This document shows positions 15,726-44,392 of a DNA stretch of 55,704 nucleotides, piece by piece; the stretch's first letter is position 1; the number at the start of each line of letters is the position of its first letter. The position numbers and the translations under genes are program-made. The DNA is from an uncultured bacterium (GTDB lineage: Bacteria; Bacteroidota; Bacteroidia; Bacteroidales; CAIWKO01). The DNA is taken from assembly GCA_903862465.1 (NCBI GenBank), contig CAIOYH010000166.1, positions 1 through 55,704 of the forward strand. The letters run 5' to 3'. Under the pieces are notes generated by a model. It ran no database searches. It was not told where the DNA came from and saw only the letters and a program-made list of their open reading frames with translations.

Positions 15726-16019
15726 ATAGAACACATGATGACTACCATGGAACACATGATAACTACCATGGAACATATAAAGACAACCATGGAAGATATG
15801 AAGACTACCATGGAAGATATAAAGACTACCATGGAAGATATGAAGACTATCATGGAAGATATAAAGACTATCATGGAAGATATAAAGACTACCATGGAAC
15901 ATATAAAGACAACCATGGAAGATATGAAGACTATCATGGAAGATATAAAGACTATCATGGAAGATATAAAGACTATCATGGAAGATATGAAGACTACCAT
16001 GGAAGATATAAAGACTATC
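15726..16019. repeat. 21-bp tandem repeat array A
   Basis: About 14 copies of a 21-bp unit run head to tail. The core is ACTACCATGGAAGATATAAA, with variants CCATGG/TCATGG, GAAGAT/GAACAT and ATAAAG/ATGAAG. The number of codons per unit is exactly seven, so frames persist through the array. The CCATGG centre is palindromic. One plus-strand frame and two minus-strand frames are open throughout. Confidence 0.97.
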
Positions 16020-16495: not shown

Positions 16496-18832
16496 ATGGC
16501 TAAAGCTTTCCTTTCACATAGCAGCACGGACAATAAATTAGTTGAAAAAATCGCTAATCACCTCGGTCGTAATAATTGTCATTTAGACAAACTTACCTTT
16601 GAAGCTGGCAGACAAACATTAGATGAAATATTTAGAGGACTTGAGTCTAGTGATATTTTTGTGCTTTTCATATCTAACGATTCACTTGAATCGGAATGGG
16701 TTAAAAAAGAAATTAGATTTACTAAAACTTTATTGGGAAAAAATGTAATCGACAGAATTTTCCCAATAATAATTGATAAGGATATTACTTATAAGGATTC
16801 TAGAATACCCGATTGGATAAAGAAACCTTACAACCTTAAATATTTTGACAACGAGGTTCTTATTCTAAAAAAAATAAAACAATTCTTGCGTGAGAGTAAT
16901 TTAAAGAAACACTCACATCTGAAGGAAGAATATGAGTTATTTGTTGGAAGACATGATCTAATGCAAACTTTCGAAAGAAAGATGATCAATATTGAAAATA
17001 TTAAGCCTACTTGTATTGTCGCTTCAAGTTATTTTGAAGGCATAGGTCGTAGAACTTTTTTGAGAAATGGACTCATAAAAACGGGAATAATTGATAAGTG
17101 GTATGATCCAATAACTATTCCTATTAATTCTAAAGAAAGTATTGAGGATTTTATTTATAAATTAAGCTTTGTTGAAAATTCGAAAGACTTATTTAAACAT
17201 GACTTTTCACAGATAGACCTTGCAACTAAAATTGAAATAGCAAAAGAACAAATTACAAAAATTGTAAATAGTGGAGAGGTTATTTTTATTATTGATGAAG
17301 GAAGTATTATTTTACCCAATCATGAAATTGCTAATTGGTTTAAAGAATTAATCTCAGATGAAAATTTTAAAAATCAAGTAACGCTATGTATTATCTCAAA
17401 ATTTAAGCCAAAGAGCCAACTAATAAGGCATTTGGGTAATATTTTAAATTTCCCTATTGATAATCTCACAAAACCCGATACTCAAATTTTCTTTATACAG
17501 TATTTAAAATTCTGTAAGATTAATTTAGATGTTAATGACTTGAAATTTTTCTTACAACATCTAAATGGTATTCCTGGTCAAATAATATATACATCAAACC
17601 TAATAGAATCGATTGGAGTTAATGAGGCAAAAAGGAATATCTATGACATAATTGAATATGACGAATTACAAGCATTGTCAGTTCTGGGACTTTTTGATGG
17701 CAATGAATTAGCACAGCAAATGCTAATTACTTTCTCCAAGTTTGAAATTATCAGTTATGATATAGTTTATCAAATTTTTGGAGAATCAGAAGAGGTATAT
17801 GAAGCAATACAAAAGTTATTTGATATGTCCCTTTTTTACACTGTCAGTTCAACTCATGAATACCTTAAATTAAATGCTACAATTGCTGATTACATTAACA
17901 GATCTAAATTGGAACTTTCAAGGAAATATGATGACAAAATAAAAATATTAACTAAAGAATTTATTTCAAAGCCAATTGAATTAAATGAAAATTCGGATTA
18001 TTCTGAATTTTTATTTACCCTTCAGATGATGATAAGTAATAATCAGCCTATTCCTTCTAAATTCTTTATACCATCTTTTATTCTAAAATCTATGGTTCAA
18101 GAATATTATCACCGAAAATATGACACCGTCATAGAATTGGCTAAAAAAGTTTTAGAAAATCCAATAAAATTTGATTATCAAATTATTCGGGAGACAAGAT
18201 ATTGGCTTTGTCTTGCATATGCTAGGACTAAAGATGAAAAATTCTTTGATGAGATTGGTTTTTTTAAAGATATTCAATATGAAACCAATTTGGACTTTTA
18301 CTTTCTCTTAGGTTTTTATTACCGCAATACTGGTAGAACAACAGAGGCAGAACGAAACTATTTGGAAGCTTTAAACATTGATAATAAGCATTCAAGAACA
18401 AAACGAGAATTAGTAATTGTATACCAAAGAAATGGCCAATATGATAAAGCATTGCAATGGGCTGAAGAAAACTATTATAAGTATAGAACTAATATTCTAC
18501 ATATTCATGCATATTTTACAAGCTTGATAAGGCAAAAAATAATAAATGCTGAAGACCATGAAATTTTGATTGAATTACTAGCAAATGCTGGAAAAAGCAA
18601 AGACAAAAAATCAAATAATATTTATAAGGAAATGCAATCAGAATATGATTATTATATTGAAGGAAACTCAGAAAAAGCTATTTCAAGACTTGAAGAATCC
18701 CTTAAAATAGACCCAACGAATTATTTTACATTCAAAGCGCTTGTCGAGATACACACTAGATGTCAGAATTTTGATGAAATTGATATTTTGGGTATAAAAT
18801 ATCCAGATTTAATAGAACCAGAATATGAATAA
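16496..18832 (+). CDS. TIR-STAND-TPR protein, probable NAD-degrading defence protein
   Basis: The 778-aa protein begins with a TIR domain (about 1-118; AFLSHSSTDN, SDIFVLFISNDSLESEW). Glu72 in EWVKKE aligns with the catalytic Glu of SARM1 (DWVHKE), which predicts NADase activity. FVGRHDL (149-155) opens a STAND-like NTPase region. The P-loop equivalent EGIGRRTFL (181-189) has Arg where Lys is expected. A Walker-B-like IFIIDEGS follows. A winged-helix-like middle and TPR-like repeats (about 580-765; NTGRTTEAERNYLEALNID, NGQYDKALQWAEENYYK) serve as a likely sensor. Such TIR-NLR-like proteins are known in antiphage defence. The gene is visibly more AT-rich than the housekeeping genes and lies among accessory genes. 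Confidence 0.82.
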   Translation: MAKAFLSHSSTDNKLVEKIANHLGRNNCHLDKLTFEAGRQTLDEIFRGLESSDIFVLFISNDSLESEWVKKEIRFTKTLLGKNVIDRIFPIIIDKDITYKDSRIPDWIKKPYNLKYFDNEVLILKKIKQFLRESNLKKHSHLKEEYELFVGRHDLMQTFERKMINIENIKPTCIVASSYFEGIGRRTFLRNGLIKTGIIDKWYDPITIPINSKESIEDFIYKLSFVENSKDLFKHDFSQIDLATKIEIAKEQITKIVNSGEVIFIIDEGSIILPNHEIANWFKELISDENFKNQVTLCIISKFKPKSQLIRHLGNILNFPIDNLTKPDTQIFFIQYLKFCKINLDVNDLKFFLQHLNGIPGQIIYTSNLIESIGVNEAKRNIYDIIEYDELQALSVLGLFDGNELAQQMLITFSKFEIISYDIVYQIFGESEEVYEAIQKLFDMSLFYTVSSTHEYLKLNATIADYINRSKLELSRKYDDKIKILTKEFISKPIELNENSDYSEFLFTLQMMISNNQPIPSKFFIPSFILKSMVQEYYHRKYDTVIELAKKVLENPIKFDYQIIRETRYWLCLAYARTKDEKFFDEIGFFKDIQYETNLDFYFLLGFYYRNTGRTTEAERNYLEALNIDNKHSRTKRELVIVYQRNGQYDKALQWAEENYYKYRTNILHIHAYFTSLIRQKIINAEDHEILIELLANAGKSKDKKSNNIYKEMQSEYDYYIEGNSEKAISRLEESLKIDPTNYFTFKALVEIHTRCQNFDEIDILGIKYPDLIEPEYE

Positions 18833-29298: not shown

Positions 29299-29646
29299 AT
29301 GAAAAAATTATGTGTTTCTATTCTGATTATTTTCTGCGCTGTGCTCATGGTTGGCAAGGCAGAAGCTCAAAAAGTGTTTTCCTGCGACAGCAAATATGAT
29401 GCGGACGTCAAGGTGTATGTGGCTGATAGTAAATATGACGCCGACCTCAGCGTGTATAAATGTTCTAGTCAGTATGATGCTACGGGCAACGAAGGGCTAT
29501 GGTTTTTTGTCAGCAGCCGATATGATGCTAACAAAAAGATATTCTTTGTGGACAGCAAGTATGATGCTGATTTGATTATTTATTTCGTGGACAGCAAATA
29601 TGATGCAGGTTGGCGAACCAATTCCAAAAAGCAATTGATGTATTAG
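29299..29646 (+). CDS. Secreted small repeat protein, DUF6150-like
   Basis: The 115-aa protein has a signal peptide (about 1-25, ending KAEAQ). Six repeats of about 12 residues follow, with the pattern DSKYDADLxVYxV (variants SSQYDAT, SSRYDAN, DSKYDAG). The alternation of strand and Tyr-Asp-Ala turn suggests a small beta solenoid or propeller-like repeat. I associate the pattern with DUF6150, with moderate certainty. A -7-like TAATTTTG lies at 29263-29270. Its function is unknown. Confidence 0.7.
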   Translation: MKKLCVSILIIFCAVLMVGKAEAQKVFSCDSKYDADVKVYVADSKYDADLSVYKCSSQYDATGNEGLWFFVSSRYDANKKIFFVDSKYDADLIIYFVDSKYDAGWRTNSKKQLMY

Positions 29647-31001
29647 CCTATCTGCAAGGCTTTCGCCAAAGCGTAGAAATCAAGATTATCGAAACCTCCT
29701 GAGCTCATCATCAGGAGGTTTTTTTGTTCCCAGGCATTAGCATTCAAAAAGCGCAGCAATTCCGTTTGATGGGTGAACACCAACAAATCCTTCCTGCCAA
29801 AGGATTCCATCAGGACACGATGGTCCAAAGGCGGCATCTTTTTCAGTTCCAACGCATGAGAGCTGTAATAGACCACCGCGATATCCGCCTGCTGCATGGC
29901 ATCTTTATATTGTTGCAGAAAATCGCTGTTCAGGCTGCTATAGGTGTGGAGTTCCATACACGCCACCAACATGCGGTCTGGATATTGCTCTTTGGCAGCT
30001 TGGATGGTTGCCTTCAGCTTGGAAGGCGAATGGGCGAAATCTTTATAGAACGCAGCGCTGTCATTTTTGCTGATGAGTTCGAGGCGTTTGGCGGCTCCTT
30101 TGAAGGTGGCGATGGCTTTCATGAACACATCCGTAGGGATGTCGAGGCTTTCGCATATCAGGCGAGCGCCGTTCAGATTCATCAGATTGTGTTTGCCAAA
30201 CACCATGATTTCGGTGGCAGCATCATCAAAAACCACCGTGGTGACGCCATTGTTAATGGCATATTTCGGCACGGAATAGGGCTTCAACTGTATGTCGCTA
30301 CGCGCTTCCACACATAGGGCGTTCACCTGCTCATCGCTTTGGCAATAGATGAGCGTTCCATCGGGTTCGATGAGGTTCATGAAGATGCGAAATTGGTCCA
30401 CATAGATGTCGAAGGTTGGAAACACGTTGATGTGGTCCCAAGCGATGCCGCTGATGAGGGCGATATGAGGCTTATAGAGATGGAATTTGGGACGTCGGTC
30501 AATGGGCGAGGTGAGGTATTCGTCGCCTTCCAAAATGATGATGGGCGCATCGGACAGGCGAAACATGGTTTGGAAGCCTTCGAGCTGAGCACCCACCATA
30601 TAATCGAAATCGCGACCGAGGCTATGCAACACATGCATCACCATCGCCGTGATGGTGGTTTTTCCGTGGCTGCCGCCAATCACCACACGGGTTTTGTTTT
30701 TTGATTGCTCGTAGATATATTCGGGAAAGGAATAGATTCGGATGCCCAAAAGTTCCGCTTGCAGCAGTTCGGGATTGTCTTCGCGGGCATGCATGCCGAG
30801 GATGACGGCATCAGTTTCTTTTGTGATTTTTTCGGGATGCCAACCGATGTCTTGAGGCAAAATGTCGCAGGCAGCCAAGCGACTTTTGGCAGGTTCGAAG
30901 ATTTCGTCGTCGGAGCCTGTAACGCGGTGTCCGCTGTTGTGCATGGCGATTGCCATATTGTGCATCACGGCACCTCCTATGGCTATAAAATGGATGTTCA
31001 T
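29643..31001 (-). CDS. mpl: Murein peptide ligase Mpl
   Basis: The 452-aa protein is a Mur ligase. The N-terminal Rossmann part (MNIHFIAIGGAVMHNMAIAMHNSGHRV) leads to the ATP-binding loop GGSHGKTTITAM. The central domain has ILEGDEYLTSPIDRRPKF, which distinguishes Mpl from MurC. It ligates the recycled tripeptide L-Ala-D-Glu-meso-DAP to UDP-MurNAc. It converges with and overlaps the DUF6150-like gene by 4 bp. Confidence 0.93.
   Translation of the reverse strand: MNIHFIAIGGAVMHNMAIAMHNSGHRVTGSDDEIFEPAKSRLAACDILPQDIGWHPEKITKETDAVILGMHAREDNPELLQAELLGIRIYSFPEYIYEQSKNKTRVVIGGSHGKTTITAMVMHVLHSLGRDFDYMVGAQLEGFQTMFRLSDAPIIILEGDEYLTSPIDRRPKFHLYKPHIALISGIAWDHINVFPTFDIYVDQFRIFMNLIEPDGTLIYCQSDEQVNALCVEARSDIQLKPYSVPKYAINNGVTTVVFDDAATEIMVFGKHNLMNLNGARLICESLDIPTDVFMKAIATFKGAAKRLELISKNDSAAFYKDFAHSPSKLKATIQAAKEQYPDRMLVACMELHTYSSLNSDFLQQYKDAMQQADIAVVYYSSHALELKKMPPLDHRVLMESFGRKDLLVFTHQTELLRFLNANAWEQKNLLMMSSGGFDNLDFYALAKALQIG
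29692..29725 (+). terminator. Terminator of the DUF6150-like gene, inside mpl
   Basis: AAACCTCCTGA and TCAGGAGGTTT form a perfect 11-bp stem with an 8-nt loop, followed by seven T. It serves plus-strand transcription yet lies within the 3' coding part of mpl on the other strand. Confidence 0.85.
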
Positions 31002-31272: not shown

Positions 31273-31591
31273 TAAAAATATTATTATTCAATTATAGAAA
31301 AAGATATTTCTATCCATATTTATAACTTTTTCATGATAATGTTCCCTTCTTAAAAAAAAATGAAAAATTTCGATTGAAGATAATCTTACTTATAAAATGC
31401 ACTCAACCTATTCAATTTGTAAGCTTGCCTTAATATATCTATTTTTTTACAAAGATAAACAAATATCCCCTTCCCCAAATAAAATATAAGAAAAAACAGA
31501 CTATCAGCTTTGAAGATGTTCAATATGTTTTGTTGTAAAGATACGCTGATTTATCCTATATATATTTTATGTGATTGATATTTAATGCTTA

Positions 31592-31870
31592 ATGGGATAT
31601 GGCGAACGTAAAATAGTCTATTTTGAAGTCATTTCGACGGGCGGCGAAACCATTTCGCCAAGCGGCGAAACCAATTCGCCAAGCGGCGGAATCAATTCGC
31701 CAAGGGGCGAAATCAATTCGCCAAGCGGCGAAACCAATTCGCCAAGCGGCGAAATCAATTCGCCAAGCGGCGAAATCAATTCACTAGGCGGCGAAATCAA
31801 TTCGCCAAGCGGCGAAATCAATTCGCCAGGCGGCGAAATCATCCTCAAAGACGCCAAAACACCTGCATGA
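31592..31870 (+). CDS. Possible repeat ORF, NSPSGEI heptads
   Basis: If translated, this 92-aa protein is almost wholly ten heptads of N-S-P-S-G-E-I type after a short head (MGYGERKIVYFEVISTG). No promoter or ribosome-binding site is convincing. The antisense frame (31618-31857) encodes ELISPLG heptads, a nearly mirror peptide, because the unit is self-complementary. Coding is unproven. Confidence 0.3.
   Translation: MGYGERKIVYFEVISTGGETISPSGETNSPSGGINSPRGEINSPSGETNSPSGEINSPSGEINSLGGEINSPSGEINSPGGEIILKDAKTPA
31631..31840. repeat. 21-bp tandem repeat array B
   Basis: Ten copies of a 21-bp unit with core TTCGCCAAGCGGCGAAATC run head to tail. Each unit is a near-perfect hairpin: TTCGCC and GGCGAA arms with an AAGC loop. 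One copy (31778-31798) has lost the stem (TTCACTAGGC). The GC-rich array stands in otherwise AT-rich DNA. Confidence 0.97.
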
Positions 31871-31959
31871 CGCAGTCAGGCATGTAAAATTCACATCTTA
31901 AATTAATCGTTTTTCTTAGTGTTCCTCAGTGCTCTCCGTGCCTCCGTGGTTTTCCCCTT

Positions 31960-31994
31960 GGTATTTGGAGCTTGATATTTGGAGCTTGAATCTT
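31960..31994. repeat. TTTGGAGCTTG dispersed repeat
   Basis: Two adjacent copies of TATTTGGAGCTTGA lie here. Related copies occur at 14081-14105 (inside the MITE-like element) and 52854-52885. It is non-coding dispersed repeat debris 3' of phoU. Confidence 0.6.
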
Positions 31995-32009
31995 AAGCCC
32001 GCCCCCCTA

Positions 32010-32681
32010 CTATTCCTTCTTCTTCGGTCTGCTATGTCGCAACACCTTAGCTTCGATAAAGAAAATAATCTCTTCGGCTATGTTGAGGGTTTGGTCGCCC
32101 ACGCGTTCTAGTTTGCGGATGATGGTGAGCAGGTTTAAGCTTTGTTCCACATTATCGGGATTATGGCGAATCATTTCAGCAATTTGCTTATTGGCTTTCA
32201 GATTGATTTGATCTAGTTTCTTATCTTTATAAAAAAGATTTGCCACTAGATGTTTGTCTTCTTTTTCAAAAGAATCATAAGCTTCAGTAAGCATTTCGAT
32301 GCTCGTTTCAAACATTTCGAGGATACGAGTTTCTTTCAACAACTCTTCATCAAAAGGTTTGTCGGCATCAAGTATGATATGCGAGATGCCGTTGGCATAA
32401 TCGCCTATGCGTTCCAAGTTGTAATTGATTTTTAGGGCAGCCAACACAAAGCGCAGGTCAATGGCTACGGGATTGAAGAGTGCGAGGATTTTTTCGCAAT
32501 CCATATTCAGTTTCAGCTCGAAGGCATCCACGCGTTTTTCGTTCACATGAATTTCGTTCGCTTTTTCTTTATCAAAATTGATGATGGCGTCTTTGGATTT
32601 CTTGATTTGGTTAATCACCAAACTCCACATCTCCATCACATCGGATTTCAAATCTTGTATTTCTGTATCTAAATGAGTCAT
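32010..32681 (-). CDS. phoU: Phosphate signalling protein PhoU
   Basis: The 223-aa all-helical protein has two PhoU three-helix units. The first includes DAFELKLNMDCEKILALFNPVAIDLRFVLAALKINYNLERIGDYA and the second NLLTIIRKLERVGDQTLNIAEEI, with the metal-binding E/D-xxx-RIGD/RVGD motifs. It couples Pst transport to the PhoR sensor kinase. It is the last gene of the pst cluster, separated from pstB by a long palindrome. Confidence 0.95.
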   Translation of the reverse strand: MTHLDTEIQDLKSDVMEMWSLVINQIKKSKDAIINFDKEKANEIHVNEKRVDAFELKLNMDCEKILALFNPVAIDLRFVLAALKINYNLERIGDYANGISHIILDADKPFDEELLKETRILEMFETSIEMLTEAYDSFEKEDKHLVANLFYKDKKLDQINLKANKQIAEMIRHNPDNVEQSLNLLTIIRKLERVGDQTLNIAEEIIFFIEAKVLRHSRPKKKE

Positions 32682-43853: not shown

Positions 43854-43883
43854 TTTGTAAATACATTTTTTTGTGTATTTTTG
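43854..43883 (+). promoter_or_regulatory. Bacteroidota promoter for the array C ORF
   Basis: TTTG (43854-43857), an 18-bp spacer and TATTTTTG (43876-43883) match the consensus. Transcription would start near 43890, about 23 nt before the ATG at 43913. This is the best evidence that an array ORF, and the gene after it, are expressed. Confidence 0.65.
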
Positions 43884-43912
43884 CAGTATCAAATCAAATA
43901 AAAACGGTTAAT

Positions 43913-44392
43913 ATGATTTTCAATTCTTCATATTATTTAGGTGCCGTATCAATAGCACCTAGTGCTTACATAGGGATTCCGTATCCCCACTATCCATCGC
44001 AAAGCCCTGCGCTTACTAGGATTGTTCCTTTCAGGAGTGGAAGGCTTTTTGCCTTTTTGGATGATATCCATATCTCAAAAAAAATTAAAAACACCTCGCG
44101 TGAAATGATTTTCGCCTTGCCGAAAACGACTTTCGCCTTACCGAAAATGATTACAGGCTTGCCCGAAACCATTCGCAGCTCAACTGTAACGACTTTCGCC
44201 TTGCCGAAAACGATTACAGGCTTGCCCGAAACCATTCGAAGCTCAAGGGAAATGACTTTCGGCTTGCCGGAAATGATTTTCGGCGAGCCCAAAACGATTT
44301 CACTTGAGCCGAACCCGACACAGGGAGAGGCGAAATTGATAAAAAATCACAGTCAAACATCCTATTCGTACTTCAAAATTCATATAAATTAA
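43913..44392 (+). CDS. Repeat ORF with TFALPKT-type heptads
   Basis: From ATG 43913 this is a 159-aa frame. A non-repetitive head (about 1-64; MIFNSSYYLGAVSIAPSAYIGIPY) has no signal peptide I would call. Ten heptads follow (MIFALPK, TTFALPK, MITGLPE, TIRSS-- ...), then a ~26-residue tail. It has a consensus promoter and ends 11 bp before the next gene, so the two would form one transcript. No known family is recognised. Confidence 0.5.
   Translation: MIFNSSYYLGAVSIAPSAYIGIPYPHYPSQSPALTRIVPFRSGRLFAFLDDIHISKKIKNTSREMIFALPKTTFALPKMITGLPETIRSSTVTTFALPKTITGLPETIRSSREMTFGLPEMIFGEPKTISLEPNPTQGEAKLIKNHSQTSYSYFKIHIN
44105..44314. repeat. 21-bp tandem repeat array C
   Basis: Ten 21-bp units run head to tail with cores such as ACTTTCGCCTTGCCGAAA, where TTTCG and CGAAA are complementary. 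Units 2-4 (44126-44188) are repeated as units 5-7 (44189-44251), a 63-bp higher-order duplication. The array is more diverged than A or B. Confidence 0.92.

Follow-up and report, generated by a model that had tools for sequence, protein, structure and literature searches.

The 21-bp tandem array that lies between phoU and a Mur ligase gene in this bacterium, array B, is best read as one member of a non-coding, genome-wide class of dispersed minisatellite modules made by DNA-level amplification, a reading to which we assign a probability of roughly 0.6. Membership of the class and the non-coding status are highly probable; the geometric step of the amplification, described below, is tentative. 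The window analysed here is a 55,704-nt contig of an uncultured member of the Bacteroidales. Array B had been noticed in it from the letters alone, and this observation was confirmed: the array is real. The interpretation offered in the original prediction was partly supported, and the class to which the array belongs is not discernible from one array alone.

Tandem Repeats Finder placed array B at 31641-31841 (period 21, 9.6 copies, 91% match, score 332, indels 0), and an in-register reading resolved ten units, the first at 31631. According to these two analyses, the coordinates (31631-31840) and the period that had been claimed for ten 21-bp units were right. All ten units had also been said to carry a TTCGCC-AAGC-GGCGAA hairpin. 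A perfect TTCGCC-N4-GGCGAA element is present in seven of them and the exact AAGC loop in five; units 1, 3 and 8 are broken. The consensus forms a ring, TTCGCC-AAGC-GGCGAA-ATCAA, in which every arm is pairable with the preceding or the next arm, and the unit has two dyad axes about 10.5 bp apart. Coordinates are collected in Table 1.

Table 1. Array B, its surroundings and related arrays; positions are those of the window.
Feature	Position	Strand	Description
Mur ligase gene (Mpl-like)	29643..31001	-	PF08245, PF01225, PF02875; 5' end toward array B
Leader of array B	31546..31630	+	Common to the C18 paralogous array, from about TATATTTTATRTGATTGATATTTAAT to the array; the part that moved with the array
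Array B	31631..31840	.	Ten 21-bp units, consensus AATTCGCCAAGCGGCGAAATC; dyad arms TTCGCC/GGCGAA, alternating spacers AAGC and ATCAA; no indels
Short 3' side of array B	31841..31910	.	No counterpart in G003, where another 21-bp array occupies the place
Dispersed intergenic repeats	31911..31995	.	CTTAGTGTTCCTCAGTGCTCTCCGTGCCTCCGTGG / CTTAGTGTTYCTYAGTG...CTCCGTGCCTCCGTGG, then heptamer-like TTGGTATTTGGAGC / TTTGGTATTTGGAGC; matches at many other intergenic sites; conserved in G003
phoU, end of pst operon	32010..32681	-	PF01895, 8e-38; 3' end toward array B
Array A, same class	15740..16017	.	13 units GACTACCATGGAAGATATAAA
Array C, same class	44103..44300	.	21/63 bp; inside an ORF

The class became apparent in a survey of 981 kb of the genome (a 4.2-Mb assembly in 230 contigs), in which arrays were counted at a Tandem Repeats Finder score of at least 100 and assigned their fundamental period. 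The survey contained 126 tandem arrays: 66 with periods of 20-22 bp, 22 with periods of 41-43 bp and only four in the range of 23-40 bp. Extrapolation yields roughly 375 arrays per genome, an estimate that is rough because the sample was partly hand-picked around earlier matches. Unit sequences are mostly unrelated from array to array. Away from contig ends, most arrays of either period class measure 150-310 bp, a range biased at its upper end because long arrays break short-read contigs. Nearly all arrays lie between genes, as called by a simple ORF-based procedure. Relative to the long gaps available, neither 3' ends nor promoters were favoured, and no orientation was preferred. Decay of 21-bp dimers is possible as the origin of some 42-bp arrays (5 of 14 at p<0.05), but not of most. 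Curvature of the DNA was also considered and rejected, as phased A/T steps are absent.

Within the same genus, G001 carries arrays of the same two periods at about one-third of this density, and G003 has six arrays in 51 kb. By contrast, no 20-22 or 41-43 bp arrays were detected in the 305 kb sampled from G002. Overall, arrays were present in three of the four genus genomes sampled; in other families of the order they are scarce.

Arrays of the class are found as copies at different loci. A search of the genome outside array B with an 18-bp core, allowing up to two mismatches, recovered a paralogous array on C18 (three sites) and a lone site on C13, and nothing elsewhere in the genome. The paralogous array (C18:17441-17648) and its leader are 79% identical to those of array B over 283 bp, starting at 31546. 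Copies that include flanks were also found in F1, a family of four members of ~440 bp, and between C15 in the present genome and the array beside phoU in G003. Other homologous pairs at different loci have the array alone in common: L172/L189 (84%), L171/L175 (77%), L047/L049 (80%) and L111/L176 (77%). Inspection of the aligned copies by eye, with neither a systematic search nor a clean empty site, revealed no terminal inverted repeats or target-site duplication. The F1 copies lie at approximately L050 16544-16980, L116 3895-4309, L119 251-650 and L184 11554-11996; each comprises an array and conserved flanks, with the hairpin AAAGGCTTGCTGTCCGCAAGCCTTT near one end, and the two unit sequences of the family have the core CGTTCGTTATTTC in common and differ in the remainder. 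A REP-like hairpin, AGTCGGAGTGCGACTCCAAGTCGCGCCCCGACT, stands beside several arrays (L049 ~6771, L116 ~4313, L119 ~247 and L107 ~9226).

Comparison with the sister species G003 indicated that the arrays are replaced on a short time scale. The pst operons of the two genomes are 91% identical in DNA and their Mur ligases 98% identical in protein. On the phoU side of G003, the homology of the flank extends to 31911 and is followed by a 21-bp array whose sequence family differs from that of array B; this genome is 81% complete, its contig ends inside that array, and its Mur-ligase side was compared by coordinates only. The intergenic region around array B has no counterpart in G003 beyond short matches, and array B itself had no match in the relatives searched (in G003, none at E 0.01). 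The original prediction had named absence from close relatives among the signs that would count against it. This was half borne out: the sequence family of array B was not found in the relatives searched, yet the array is part of a much larger class. Compared at the species level, with one genome per species, the class appears to be one of fast turnover between sister species.

On the transcript strand, array B follows the phoU stop at a distance of 170 bp; the Mur ligase gene, which reads away from the array, starts 630 bp from it. The array could form a cluster of RNA hairpins where the pst-phoU transcript ends, acting in transcription termination or in protection of the 3' end of the mRNA; one study proposes that hairpin clusters serve as terminators (PMC8355165). 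Consistent with such a role, terminator-like sites on that strand number five in array B and six in the region, versus 1.2 expected, and in G003 it is again an array that occupies the place by phoU. However, the stems are not followed by a T run, covariation is absent, G001 has no array by phoU, and the class as a whole does not favour 3' ends. We consider this role quite unlikely.

Several further features of the window were noted. The dispersed repeats between array B and phoU are neighbours of the array and not part of it; at many intergenic sites, such repeats share the gaps with arrays. Array A adjoins a gene for a TIR-domain protein with TPR repeats (window 16496-18832), possibly a defence gene. 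The ORF that contains array C (window 43854-44392) has an ATG at 43913 and, ahead of it, a match to the Bacteroidetes-type promoter, TTTG-N18-TATTTTTG (43854-43883); array C may be translated. Close relatives of PhoU (86-88% identity) are encoded in lake MAGs (AlinenLipids bins). A phage, plasmid or viral origin was considered and found no match.

The heptads containing SP-x-GE that had been described from both strands of array B hold as translations: NSPSGEI on the + strand and ISPLGEL on the - strand. An ATG-started ORF of 92 aa spans the array on the + strand (31592-31870), as expected of a small gene encoding heptad repeats. In other families, according to our reading of the alignments, the frame continues into a conserved tail (...TFV..EGWSRLTF in F1 and ...QVANGEEWK in C15). 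By contrast, the variation between array B units is not concentrated at synonymous sites: 2 of 14 changes are synonymous in the NSPSGEI frame and 3 of 14 in the ISPLGEL frame, versus 22% and 27% expected. In the C18 paralog, as we read its sequence, the + strand frame has a stop and no start. Among the 58 array families whose period is a multiple of three, the variation had no codon-phase periodicity (mean mid-p 0.63), and a heptad frame is impossible in arrays with periods of 20, 41 or 43 bp. No Pfam match was obtained. Together, these data support the original suggestion that array B is not a gene and make a heptad-repeat protein highly improbable at this locus. The codon tests and Pfam likewise led us to reject protein coding as an account of the class; it is possible that a frame has been kept in array C and in the F1 and C15 families.

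A second suggestion in the original prediction was that an RNA copy of array B would fold into a comb of ten identical hairpins and could be a structural RNA. The comb was not reproduced. Two registers of pairing are open to the arms, TTCGCC-AAGC-GGCGAA and GGCGAA-ATCAA-TTCGCC, so that the RNA fold of minimum energy is a single long rod, and forcing the comb with a pair span of 20 nt costs ~15 kcal/mol on the + strand and ~26 kcal/mol on the - strand. Folded as DNA, array B gave a mixture of hairpins. The predicted RNA folds are very stable on both strands (-87.6 kcal/mol on +, z -5.4; -102.1 kcal/mol on -, z -5.6), which argues for a structural non-coding RNA in the form of a comb or a rod, but good folding is expected of any tandem self-complementary repeat. 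Class-level covariation did not exceed that of column shuffles (15 double changes versus 13.6), and array B alone holds too few changes. Compensatory changes had seemed in excess in a rough look (7 versus ~1 expected, by our own arithmetic); within-column shuffles removed this signal. A wobble asymmetry that would mark the transcribed strand was not significant class-wide (p 0.07), the Rfam search returned nothing near the gathering score, and no clear promoter toward array B was found. In the L171/L175 family, one pair, picked after the fact, comprises A-T (13), G.T (7) and G-C (4) and never A.C (0; Fisher 0.03), a point in favour of a structural RNA. The members of this family are paired copies of a dyad array, TAGARCNNGYTCTA, at L171 11359-11620 and L175 4543-4823. 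Overall, a structural RNA is a very unlikely explanation of array B, and the suggestion found no support at the level of the class.

Dyad symmetry is nevertheless a property of the class. In 75 distinct families, the self-complementarity of the unit consensus was above that of its own shuffles (mean mid-p 0.36, KS 5e-4) and the dyad symmetry was above that of flanking windows (MWU 0.0016). The excess was strong at 41-43 bp (KS 2e-6) and marginal at 20-22 bp (KS 0.06). Stem arms were less variable than the rest of the unit (15 families, KS 0.004). In array B and its C18 paralog, changes affected 4 of 204 arm cells versus 19 of 153 loop cells, a difference for which the Fisher value of 1e-4 is optimistic because the units are of common ancestry. 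Many arrays have no hairpin and the excess at 20-22 bp is marginal; therefore, dyads alone cannot explain the period. These class tests indicate that the dyad is favoured and do not demonstrate RNA pairing as such.

Conserved arms, variable spacers, a two-turn spacing and inverted half-sites about one turn apart are also what an array of sites for a dimeric DNA-binding protein would present, whether iteron-, operator- or centromere-like, with the sites spaced by two turns and facing the same side of the helix. However, the cores differ between arrays, so that no single protein could recognise all of them by sequence; only one paralog of array B exists in the genome; and the flanking genes tested include no initiator or partition gene. 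Judged on these sequence features, a protein-binding array is rather improbable.

The preferred reading, a class of dispersed non-coding modules, can be given a mechanism. We propose that DNA-level amplification, through slippage, rolling replication or staggered repair, would create the arrays and keep them homogeneous, and that it would favour units spanning two turns of B-DNA. With inverted half-sites spaced ~10.5 bp apart, successive dyad axes would come to lie on one face of the helix, which could allow hairpins, cruciforms or a dimeric DNA-binding protein to stack along it. For both axes of a unit to lie on one face, the period would have to be an even number of turns, which would admit 21 and 42 bp but neither 31 nor 52 bp. 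This double-dyad geometry fits array B exactly. Arrays without dyads keep the same period, and the cause could therefore lie in the copying process instead. Any benefit of the arrays to the host would be secondary. A bolder version, which we regard as unlikely, is that a lineage-specific machinery writes arrays of two- or four-turn units (~200-300 bp) from any sequence and inserts them whole at new intergenic sites; such a repeat generator would be specified by the geometry of the helix rather than by a sequence. No agent was found. Both Y1 transposases and reverse transcriptases were considered and rejected, as their presence or absence does not correlate with that of arrays, and both occur in G002, where the 305 kb sampled held no arrays. 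With these genes but no arrays in that sample, G002 provides a natural contrast for finding the agent.

Among known systems, the nearest kind are minisatellites or VNTRs, described from E. coli as a small group of variable segments (PMC2884548). Bacterial minisatellites resemble the present arrays in being non-coding, head-to-tail repeats of ~20 bp or more that are homogenised within a locus and turn over fast. Array B fits this description in its unit structure, with head-to-tail units in the range of ~10-100 bp (period 21, 91% match), and in its freedom from coding constraint. The arrays of this genome differ from minisatellites in that they number several hundred per genome (estimated), keep a 21- or 42-bp step nearly throughout, are enriched in dyads and are copied between loci as modules.

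REP/BIME elements are likewise intergenic, palindromic, lineage-specific and able to form arrays (PMC3733652), and Y1 transposase genes, as in REP/RAYT systems, occur in this genus. REPs, however, have one genome-wide sequence and a GTAG or CGTC tag, whereas most arrays here have their own sequence. A single family at many sites was not seen, the array B core being confined to array B, the C18 paralog and the lone site, and neither tag occurs in AATTCGCCAAGCGGCGAAATC or its complement. Transposase presence does not track array presence.

Iterons and phased operators are direct repeats of ~20-22 bp, or two helical turns, with a conserved core and a variable spacer. The arrays are like iterons in this step and in the conserved core with variable spacer; they differ in being chromosomal, in occupying hundreds of sites (estimated) with unrelated cores, and in that no initiator or partition gene was seen next to array B. 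As in MITE-like elements, the F1 copies and the B/C18 pair have flanks and array in common at different loci, but several families have the array alone in common, and inspection by eye showed neither terminal inverted repeats nor target duplication. A limited literature search yielded no earlier report of arrays of this class, an absence that is weak evidence.

Sequence is what defines the bacterial repeat families known so far; in the present arrays, the common property is geometry. The class brings together unrelated sequences with a 21- or 42-bp step, a similar array length, fast turnover between sister species and, apparently, no occurrence in one relative. Contigs of the clade frequently terminate in such arrays, and where heptad 'proteins' or 'hairpin RNAs' are annotated in genomes of this kind, they may merely reflect 21-bp arrays. 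It is testable whether the arrays are made or maintained by a dedicated process, and through which gene.
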